Below, in pieces: positions 1,020 to 4,266 of a DNA stretch of 64,000 bases (position 1 is its first letter; every line of letters begins with the position of its first letter). Both the position numbers and the translations under genes were made by a program. The DNA comes from Agarivorans aestuarii. Its GTDB lineage: Bacteria > Pseudomonadota > Gammaproteobacteria > Enterobacterales > Celerinatantimonadaceae. The DNA is taken from the NCBI RefSeq assembly GCF_019670125.1, contig NZ_AP023033.1, forward strand, positions 2,717,001 to 2,781,000, written 5' to 3'. The notes below the pieces were generated by a model that was given only the letters and a program-made list of their open reading frames with translations, had not been told where the DNA came from and searched no databases.

Positions 1020-1733
1020 ATGAAAAAGCTCTCAATAATTTCATTGTCTCTTGCACTTACCGCTTGTGCGAGCCAACAAGCCTCTCAACCTAACGATCAA
1101 ACTCTCGAGCAATTATCCGCTCTTTCGGCTCAGCAAACCTCCGTTTTAAGCCTGTGTGAGTCAATTTCTGAGCAATTAGCAGCTCAACAGCAACGTTTTG
1201 ATCAACTAGAAGAGAAAGTGGTGGCGATAGCCCCAGTGCCAGCTGCGACTTCCAAATCAACCCCGCAAAGCTGCAGCAAGCAAACAAGCTACAAGCTTGG
1301 TAACAAAACCGTGTTAGGTGAATCTGAATGGGTAAGCTTAGAGGGGCAAAAAAAGGCCTTTCAAGCGCGTATTGATACTGGCGCGGCAACCTCTTCGCTA
1401 AACGCAACTGACATTGTAAAATTTGAGCGCGATGGAAAAAACTGGGTGCGTTTTAATATGCGCCATAAAACCCTGGATAGCGATATTATTGTAGAACGCC
1501 CAGTAATACGCACCGCCGAGGTAACTCAATCATCAACCAACAAAGTAGATAAACGCCCAGTTGTTTCTATGTTGGTTAAGTTAGGTCCGATCTCAGAAAA
1601 GACCCAATTTACTTTAACCGACCGTAACCACCTTAGCTACCCAGTGCTACTAGGTCGTAGCTTCCTAAAAGATATAAGTGTGGTAGATATAAGCCAGAAG
1701 TTTACCCAAGCGAAACCGACATTTAAGGATTAA
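1020..1733 (+). CDS. lipoprotein with retropepsin-like (RimK-associated, 'ATP-dependent zinc protease' family) domain
   Basis: 237 residues. The N-terminus is a lipoprotein signal with lipobox LTAC (Cys16), so the protein is probably tethered to a periplasm-facing membrane leaflet. A short Gln-rich, coiled-coil-like stretch follows (about residues 25-70). The C-terminal half carries the aspartic-protease-like motif DTGAATSSL (Asp119) and a second block with PVLLGRSFL. This domain is the PF05618 family, named a zinc protease in databases but retropepsin-like in its active-site motif. The next two genes overlap head to tail (TAATG, then TGATG) and encode a 7TM transglutaminase-like protein and an ATP-grasp ligase, so the three probably act together. 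Family proteins are genomically linked to RimK-type peptide ligases; the substrate is not known to me. A peptidase trimming the ligase's product is an inference. Confidence 0.85.
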   Translation: MKKLSIISLSLALTACASQQASQPNDQTLEQLSALSAQQTSVLSLCESISEQLAAQQQRFDQLEEKVVAIAPVPAATSKSTPQSCSKQTSYKLGNKTVLGESEWVSLEGQKKAFQARIDTGAATSSLNATDIVKFERDGKNWVRFNMRHKTLDSDIIVERPVIRTAEVTQSSTNKVDKRPVVSMLVKLGPISEKTQFTLTDRNHLSYPVLLGRSFLKDISVVDISQKFTQAKPTFKD

Positions 1734-3262
1734 TGCCCATGAGTTCTCGCAATATATTTTATTTCATTGTCACCTTGTGCATGCTGATAGGAATAAGCAT
1801 GACAATGTATCGTCATGTTCAATTTGAAGTACCGTGGTTTCCTGGCGAAAAACGTCAGATTTGGTCAATTGAAGCCAAGGTAGAATTTGACGCCAAAGGC
1901 GAAAGCGTTGAAGCAGTGCTTGCGCTGCCACTAACTCAACGCGGCTATACCCGTATCCATGAATCAACAGCATCATTAGCTTATGGCTTATCTTTTGTTA
2001 ACGACCAAGATAACCCTCGCGCCATCTGGACTAAGCGAACAGCTGACGGCCATCAAGAGATGTATTATAAAGTAGACTTCTTGGTTGATCCTAAAGCGGC
2101 AGATATTTATCAGCCTCAGATGCCTGATACACCATTTACTGAATACCCAGAACCTTACTTCACCGCTGCTAACCACTTAGCCAAACAGGCTGAAGAAGTT
2201 TCTGCTGATGCCTATAGCTTTACTCGTGAGTTGATCAAAGCCTTAACGGATGACGCTGCCAGCAAAAGCCAAAATACGGGTTTGATCTTAGATTACAAAC
2301 CGAAAAACCGCTTAATAGTAGACCTACTAAACAACGCCGATGTTCCAGCGCGTATTGTTCGTGGTTTACAGCTAGAAGACGGTCGCCGTCGTCAAGGTAT
2401 TACCGAATATATTCAAGTATTTAAAGATGAGAACGACTGGCAGATATTTGATTTATCAAATGGTATCCAAGGTCGACCTGACAATACCCTATTATGGGAA
2501 TACAACGGCAACAGCTTGCTTGAAGTGGTTGGTGGTAAAGATTCTCAAGTCACCTTCTCAATGTTACTGGTTGAACAAAGCGCTCAGTCGGCCGTCGCCC
2601 CTAAAATTAGCGAAGCAGATTTTCTTAATTTCTCAATTGATAGCTTACCCTTAGAAGAACAGGCGCTCTTTAAAGGCATTCTACTTATCCCTATTGGCGT
2701 ATTGATTGTTGTATTGCTGCGTGTGCTAGTAGGACTAAAAACCTCAGGTACCTTTATGCCAGTGCTTATTGCCATGGCATTTATGCAGACCTCATTGATG
2801 ACAGGCTTGATTGGCTTCATTATTGTAGTGGGAACTGGTTTGGTTATTCGTGGTTACTTGTCGCACCTAAACTTGCTGCTGGTCTCGCGAATATCGGCGG
2901 TGATTATTACAGTAATCGGAATTATTTCTATCTTCAGTGTTATGAGCTTCAAAGTTGGCTTAACCGAAGGCTTAAAAATCACGTTCTTCCCAATGATTAT
3001 TCTATCGTGGACCATCGAACGGATGTCAGTACTATGGGAAGAAGAAGGCCCTAAAGAAGTGGTTATGCAAGGTGGTGGTAGCTTGCTAGTGGCCGTTCTC
3101 GCCTTCTTAGCAATGAACAACGATTATGTTCGTCACTTAACATTTAACTTTATGGGTGTTCAGTTCATTGTATTAGGAATCATCCTTATCCTAGGTAACT
3201 ACACAGGGTACCGATTACTCGAGCTTCGCCGCTTTCAGCCATTAGCGAATAGGGAGGACTGA
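1733..3262 (+). CDS. inactive transglutaminase-like domain fused to a 7-TM module
   Basis: 509 residues. One N-terminal membrane anchor (about 8-26) is followed by a large extracytoplasmic region (about 30-310) that resembles the inactive transglutaminase domain of this family. A C-terminal block of about seven hydrophobic helices follows (about 313-500, beginning near ALFKGILLIPIGVLIVVLL). The architecture matches the family annotated as inactive transglutaminase fused to 7 transmembrane helices. The start overlaps the stop of the lipoprotein gene (TAATG) with AAGGA just upstream; an in-frame ATG six bases later is also possible. The stop overlaps the ATP-grasp gene (TGATG). This is consistent with a translationally coupled operon. 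The role is unknown; a membrane platform that binds a peptide or polymer handled by its neighbours is an inference. Confidence 0.85.
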   Translation: MPMSSRNIFYFIVTLCMLIGISMTMYRHVQFEVPWFPGEKRQIWSIEAKVEFDAKGESVEAVLALPLTQRGYTRIHESTASLAYGLSFVNDQDNPRAIWTKRTADGHQEMYYKVDFLVDPKAADIYQPQMPDTPFTEYPEPYFTAANHLAKQAEEVSADAYSFTRELIKALTDDAASKSQNTGLILDYKPKNRLIVDLLNNADVPARIVRGLQLEDGRRRQGITEYIQVFKDENDWQIFDLSNGIQGRPDNTLLWEYNGNSLLEVVGGKDSQVTFSMLLVEQSAQSAVAPKISEADFLNFSIDSLPLEEQALFKGILLIPIGVLIVVLLRVLVGLKTSGTFMPVLIAMAFMQTSLMTGLIGFIIVVGTGLVIRGYLSHLNLLLVSRISAVIITVIGIISIFSVMSFKVGLTEGLKITFFPMIILSWTIERMSVLWEEEGPKEVVMQGGGSLLVAVLAFLAMNNDYVRHLTFNFMGVQFIVLGIILILGNYTGYRLLELRRFQPLANRED

Positions 3263-4218
3263 TGCTTAATCAATTCACTAGTCCTTTCAAACTTGCCCGA
3301 AAGGGCATCATGGGGATGAACCAGCGCAATACCGGTTATATTAGCCGGTATAACCCGCGTAAGCTTTATCCTCTGGTCGACAATAAACTAAAAACCAAGA
3401 TTATTGCTCAGCGCGATGACGTTACTATTCCTGCTCTAATTGGTGTGGTGCGCACTCAGCACGATATTCAATCAATTATTCCTCTACTGCATAAACACCC
3501 TGGCTTTGTGATAAAGCCAGCCAAAGGCTCTGGCGGCAAAGGCATTTTGGTTATTACCAAACAAGAGTCAGGGGTATTTTTTAAACCCAGCGGCGCTCCC
3601 ACTCACGAAGAAGATGTTAAGCGTCACTGCTCTAATATCTTAGCGGGCTTATTTTCACTAGGTGGCAGCCCCGATGTGGCAGTGATTGAGGCCTTAATCG
3701 AGTTTGATTCTTGTTTTGATGGCTTTAGCTTTGAAGGTGTGCCAGATGTACGAGTCATTGTTTTTCAAGGCTACCCAGTTATGGCAATGATGCGCCTCTC
3801 TACCGCGGCTTCAGACGGTAAGGCTAATTTACACCAAGGCGCAGTAGGTGTTGGTATTGATATTGGTAGCGGACGAGCATTACATGCAGTTCAGTTTGAT
3901 AGACCTATAGAAAAACACCCCGATACAGACCGACCGCTTAAAGAGCTGATCGTTCCTCATTGGCAGCGCCTACTTGAACTCGCCTCTAGCTGTTACGAAA
4001 TGTCGGGAATGGGTTACCTGGGTACCGACATGGTTTTAGATAAATCCAATGGCCCAATGCTGTTAGAGCTTAACGCCCGGCCGGGTTTGGCTATCCAAAT
4101 AGCTAATGGTGAAGGCATCCTACCCCGCCTTAAACTAGTTGAGAAAATGGTTGCCGAAGGCATTGAACGAACCCCGCTTGAGCGAGTTGAGTTTAGTAAA
4201 ACGGAGTTCTCTAGGTAA
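3262..4218 (+). CDS. RimK-related alpha-L-glutamate ligase-like ATP-grasp protein
   Basis: 318 residues, third gene of the operon. ATP-grasp signatures are visible: the nucleotide-binding loop FVIKPAKGSGGKGILVI (about residue 83), the acidic and arginine-rich central region with VPDVRVIVFQGYPVMAMMR, and the metal-binding end LLELNARPGLAIQIANGEG. Enzymes of this fold use ATP to make an amide bond between a carboxylate and an amino group; RimK itself adds glutamates to ribosomal protein S6. This subfamily is distinct from RimK and is associated with the 7TM transglutaminase-like and retropepsin-like genes. A strong GGAGG precedes the ATG. No signal peptide is visible, so it is cytosolic. The acceptor and amino acid cannot be read from the sequence. 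Confidence 0.87.
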   Translation: MLNQFTSPFKLARKGIMGMNQRNTGYISRYNPRKLYPLVDNKLKTKIIAQRDDVTIPALIGVVRTQHDIQSIIPLLHKHPGFVIKPAKGSGGKGILVITKQESGVFFKPSGAPTHEEDVKRHCSNILAGLFSLGGSPDVAVIEALIEFDSCFDGFSFEGVPDVRVIVFQGYPVMAMMRLSTAASDGKANLHQGAVGVGIDIGSGRALHAVQFDRPIEKHPDTDRPLKELIVPHWQRLLELASSCYEMSGMGYLGTDMVLDKSNGPMLLELNARPGLAIQIANGEGILPRLKLVEKMVAEGIERTPLERVEFSKTEFSR

Positions 4219-4235
4219 ATTTACACACGCTAAAA

Positions 4236-4266
4236 CAAAAAAGCACCCATTAATGGGTGCTTTTTT
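4236..4266. terminator. bidirectional intrinsic terminator between the ATP-grasp operon and purF
   Basis: A perfect stem, AAGCACCCA / TGGGTGCTT, with a TTAA loop is flanked by A6 on the left and T6 on the right. It can stop transcription from both converging units: the 1020-4218 operon on plus and purF on minus. Confidence 0.92.

Follow-up and report, generated by a model that had tools for sequence, protein, structure and literature searches.

The rloABC operon of Pseudomonas aeruginosa (PA1768-PA1766) was characterised in 2025 (PMC12239564), and in Pseudomonas it influences biofilms, osmotic tolerance and the response to beta-lactams. In that study RloA cuts poly-glutamate of at least eight residues in vitro, with K46, R92, R114 and R137 gripping the substrate in a model; complementation is lost with R114A or R137A, and Asp48 was also mutated. 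The study also reports that an encoded run of 8 Glu occurs in no secreted P. aeruginosa protein, that rlo mutants have cell-wall phenotypes and that VxrB regulates the rlo genes in Vibrio cholerae. In a triple mutant lacking all RloA proteases, removing rloB or rloC cures the osmotic-stress phenotype completely and the remaining phenotypes in part (PMC12239564), and RloB and RloC would therefore make or export something that RloA must trim. Structures of RloA have been solved (9g58 and 9g59). Independent literature has met the same genes as suppressor insertions in an exopolysaccharide screen, in selections with ceftazidime and other antibiotics, and in hyper-vesiculation of Shewanella. A 2009 comparative-genomics paper on amidoligases, cited by others, was probably the first to note the gene set.

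The window, as we call the whole stretch of 64,000 nucleotides of Agarivorans aestuarii DNA that was analysed, holds this already characterised system as a real, conserved operon in a new host. Three adjacent open reading frames lie on the + strand, rloA at 1020-1733 (237 aa), rloB at 1733-3262 (509 aa) and rloC at 3262-4218 (318 aa), and each junction is a 1-nt stop-start overlap, TAATG at 1731-1735 and TGATG at 3260-3264. By fold energy a bidirectional intrinsic terminator (~4237-4266, + strand; -18.9 kcal/mol, z -5.4) stands between rloC and the convergent downstream neighbour purF, which was named from its sequence. The upstream neighbour of rloA is cmoB, with a frame open up to the window edge; a broken cmoB was considered and rejected, the frame being open as far as the window reaches. 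There was no match to anti-phage defence families or Rfam elements, nor a significant one to viral proteins. The genome has a single RloB, 95% identical to that of Agarivorans sp. Toyoura001, and a single RloC. The initial annotation had described overlapping genes ending at one terminator and had called their products a ligase, a membrane protein with an inactive transglutaminase domain and an aspartic-protease-like lipoprotein; frames, overlaps and hairpin bear out the former, and family matches (PF14397; PF14400 with PF14402; PF05618 with a lipobox) the latter. Its further statement that the system was undescribed does not hold, since the operon was named in 2025, RloA structures have been solved and poly-glutamate cleavage in vitro has been reported (PMC12239564).

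RloA is a retropepsin-like aspartic peptidase (PF05618, E=2.6e-42) whose PDB relatives are 9g59 (E=1.2e-22), 9g58 and 2pma. A lipobox, L-T-A-C16, at residues 13-16 (1056-1067, + strand) predicts an exported lipoprotein, and lipobox-type N-termini recur in many relatives; with Ala as the +2 residue, the protein is probably retained at the outer membrane. The protease domain (1311-1715, + strand) carries the DTGA motif (1374-1385, + strand) with the catalytic Asp119, the equivalent of Asp48 in P. aeruginosa RloA; some aligned RloAs have DSG instead of DTG. R117, R164, R179 and R202 align with the poly-glutamate contacts K46, R92, R114 and R137, the first Lys being replaced by Arg. For this mapping residues were counted along a Pseudomonas-type sequence, and all four matched the published numbering. 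Gene order, domains, DTGA motif, contacts and the ATP-grasp residues of RloC are all shared with P. aeruginosa rloABC, at identities to Pseudomonas-type orthologues of ~35% for the RloA domain, 32-33% for RloB and 46% for RloC. Unlike P. aeruginosa RloA, the window protein is a lipoprotein; its linker is long (~100 residues), and the two disulfide cysteines are missing. Two forms of RloA can be told apart, one a lipoprotein whose linker spans about 85-140 residues (window, Vibrio-, Aeromonas- and Halomonas-type), the other short and without a lipobox (Pseudomonas-type and others), in a tally that is indicative only, as the simple lipobox pattern also missed clear lipoproteins. Window RloA and RloB both fall under the cut-offs of the narrow Pseudomonas-type NCBIfam models tried (NF052262, NF052263, NF052264 and NF052267): RloA reached 114.3 against 210 with the best RloA model, and RloB 321.5 against 900 with NF052267 (E=9e-96), a shortfall that limits only the narrow name.

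RloB matches PF14400 (1.3e-47) and PF14402 (8.3e-107) and joins a periplasmic transglutaminase-like domain (1853-2584, + strand) to a seven-transmembrane (7TM) domain (2651-3232, + strand). The AlphaFold2 model (AF2; pLDDT 77.5) suggests that the outer domain resembles the cysteine-protease/transglutaminase fold: residues 41-284 match 3isr, a putative cysteine protease, over 214 residues at an rmsd of 4.1 A (Z 13.3), no further match reaching Z 7, and PF01841 gave weak matches in 8 of 43 RloBs. In the alignment the window protein has gap-T-D where the triad C-H-D is expected; Cys and His are lost and Asp is kept, and this domain would therefore bind rather than catalyse. TgpA and other membrane-bound transglutaminase-like proteins likewise place a periplasmic fold on a membrane anchor, the match to TgpA being weak (Z 5.6); unlike TgpA, window RloB has lost the triad and has a different membrane domain. 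A search of the PDB by sequence found no credible relative of RloB.

The 7TM domain is the most conserved part of RloB (82% mean column identity). Folded alone (pLDDT 75.5) it gave no significant Foldseek match, and the top VIA matches, all at background Z, were a subunit of Rnf, one of a methyltransferase, and NqrD; the best value against Rnf/Nqr (RnfA, NqrD) was Z 8.1 over 127 residues at 3.5 A, which does not exceed the usual background. An AcrB-like match no longer led once the domain was folded alone. By eye, the 7TM domain shares with PgsC/CapC a GxxxxGxxxP motif at equal spacing, and hhalign scored the pair at 19.3 against a permuted null of 12.4 +/- 2.1, with 1 of 100 permutations as high and the alignment spanning 24 columns only, so that profile comparison is only suggestive of kinship, which is retained as a lead. 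PF14102 (PgsC/CapC) matched none of the 43 RloBs; a weak PF14102 match in genome G236 came from an unrelated membrane protein similar to heme A synthase. PgsC relatives were sought in plasmids with a Bacillus subtilis PgsC query, the profile being built from retrieved database sequences only, and none were found in viral contigs.

The third protein, RloC, matches PF14397 (3.3e-96) and scores 469.7 bits with TIGR02291, above the curated cut-off of 314.2. By sequence it is an alpha-L-glutamate ligase-like protein that keeps the Mg/ATP residues of the RimK type, the ATP-grasp positions D256, E269, N271, K85 and R178 being invariant and common to RimK; a sequence search of the PDB found no relative.

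The three genes travel together. At the GTDB loci recovered through RloB, RloA adjoins it in 80/80 and RloC in 79/80, far above chance, the one exception lying where the contig ends, and the order rloA-rloB-rloC is kept across classes; the gene set had been called a known genomic association, and these counts confirm it. Of 200 Pseudomonadota genomes, 34 have RloB, and those 34 and no others give strong RloC matches; the PF05618 family is more widespread (72/200). In a sample of 398 genomes, 65 have RloB, with RloC adjacent in 65/65 and RloA in 57/65, so that RloA is absent beside the pair in 8 of 65. An unlinked distribution, which the initial annotation had named as speaking against its proposal, was looked for and not seen. 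That the genes cluster by accident, without a joint function, has next to no probability given the order conserved across classes and the identical presence and absence of RloB and RloC; linkage together with the published epistasis rules it out. RloB and RloC are an invariant pair, always found together, and RloA is their usual third partner, sometimes absent; therefore the 7TM domain of RloB plus RloC form the constant core. Comparative anatomy thereby isolates this core and narrows the question to what an inseparable pair makes and moves.

Our preferred reading, to which we give a probability of about 0.6, is that the window carries a lipoprotein-type orthologue of the P. aeruginosa rloABC operon, in which a glutamate product of RloC is passed by RloB and cut by RloA. 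Cytosolic RloC would use ATP to add or polymerise alpha-linked glutamate, as free chains or attached to an acceptor. The 7TM domain of RloB would pass or present this product to the periplasm, where the degenerate transglutaminase domain may bind it without cutting. RloA, tethered by its lipid and linker, probably to the outer membrane, would dimerise around Asp119 and cut poly-glutamate so that the product stays short; without trimming, the envelope would suffer. From the published epistasis it follows that RloA relieves a state brought about by RloB and RloC, and with a ligase-like RloC and a poly-glutamate-cutting RloA the simplest reading is a glutamate polymer or polyglutamylated product reaching the periplasm through or by RloB. 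Poly-glutamate cleavage, and the cure of RloA loss when rloB or rloC is deleted, were shown for the P. aeruginosa orthologues (PMC12239564); the window itself contributes identity, conserved catalytic and contact residues and operon linkage. We infer from these the product, its transport by RloB and the membrane that holds RloA. Against this reading count the narrow cut-offs that window RloA and RloB do not reach, the 8 of 65 genomes in which rloBC lack an adjacent RloA, the absence of an encoded run of 8 Glu from secreted P. aeruginosa proteins, and the 7TM comparisons, which yielded no transporter fold. An earlier proposal that the three proteins make, hold and trim a peptide or peptide-tagged polymer agrees with the linkage and with the genetics and biochemistry of the orthologous operon (PMC12239564); the interpretation is largely right and, taken as a whole, partly supported.

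RimB-RimK, known from glutamylation of ribosomal protein S6, also pairs a retropepsin with an ATP-grasp glutamate ligase, and the window genome has both systems. Elsewhere in that genome (L126:2387-5333) rimK, a deacylase-like gene, a gene for a small MscS-like membrane protein and a rimB-like gene stand in a row; RimK is a true one (460.7 bits, over the cut-off) and the RimB-like protein scores 112 bits, under the 200-bit cut-off. Unlike RloA with its lipobox, RimB is cytosolic, and no RloB accompanies it. This parallel, the separate rim-type cluster and the published cell-wall phenotypes (PMC12239564) lend some appeal to a different arrangement, in which RloC and RloB would polyglutamylate an acceptor, either a protein or something peptidoglycan-related, and RloA would reverse it, as a periplasmic on/off switch with RloB as receptor or scaffold rather than transporter. 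We regard this as possible though rather doubtful, because with a cytosolic RloC and an exported RloA the product must cross the membrane anyway, and because the acceptor is only postulated.

Four variants do not appear in the available part of the published rlo account (PMC12239564): the lipoprotein RloA with a long linker, two types of RloB, and rloBC with PF05618 proteins elsewhere. Five genomes of one family, f27 (L118, L119, L122, L123 and L185), have rloBC without an adjacent RloA, and their RloB keeps an intact Cys-His-Asp triad in the motifs SCNGKG, SHQWVE and PFDTIND (PF01841, E=6.5e-15), which is found in 0/58 of the other RloBs having the transglutaminase domain. Inactivity of this domain, as initially annotated, thus stands for window RloB and does not extend to these relatives, in which it may still be catalytic. 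Downstream lie a gene for a TPR protein (5/5) and one for an outer-membrane barrel weakly similar to EpsL (4/5; the contig of the fifth ends), which hint at the product's destination; the rloB-rloC-TPR-barrel set looks like a trans-envelope export cluster. This is one lineage, and so possibly one event. Because its triad is intact where RloA is missing, it suggests, and does not show, that trimming once resided in RloB itself. Two genomes of family f33 have instead a 7TM-only RloB lacking the transglutaminase domain, with an outer-membrane-barrel-like gene upstream of RloB and RloC (L121:5963-8958 and L120:6155-8922); the L121 barrel-like protein matched no Pfam or NCBIfam family. At L120 rimB-rimK lies just upstream, and the sole PF05618 neighbour in one f33 genome is a RimB-type protein beside RimK. 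A further genome, G193, has rloBC with PF05618 proteins elsewhere.

A signalling role for RloB, by which it would sense the envelope and control RloC, with poly-glutamate cleavage by RloA as a side activity, would account for a degenerate enzyme domain facing the periplasm and for the VxrB regulation reported in V. cholerae (PMC12239564). We consider it quite unlikely, as the poly-glutamate-contact mutants R114A and R137A fail to complement in that same study and the transglutaminase triad is intact in one lineage. Within the preferred reading of a passed and trimmed glutamate product, PgsBCA/CapBCA, the poly-gamma-glutamate synthase-exporter, offers an analogy in how it works, with a ligase, a membrane protein and an outside trimmer. 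PgsB belongs to a different ligase family than RloC. We speculate, with low confidence, that the 7TM domain of RloB and RloC could be a minimal, PgsBC-like synthase-exporter of an alpha-linked glutamate polymer in Gram-negatives. The periplasmic trimmer would be replaceable, being mostly RloA, RloB's own triad in the RloA-less TPR/barrel lineage (perhaps with export to the surface), and none that we recognise in a third lineage.

Some further proteins were noted in passing. Family f27 genomes encode a 1079-aa protein (L146:8486-11725) that has two PgsC/CapC domains in tandem (TIGR04011, E=8e-19) as well as a long C-terminal part. Another PF05618 protein, small and exported, is encoded at L127:5757-6293, a few genes away from thiamine-synthesis genes; it has DTGA and an odd ~23-residue insertion. 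The window genome also encodes an apparently exported 635-aa protein (L125:5141-7045; contig 1, about 3839140-3841044) with three PF05618 retropepsin domains, an unusual number for a single chain; DTGA is kept in domains 1 and 3 and lost in the middle one, and relatives are encoded by three genomes belonging to the same order.
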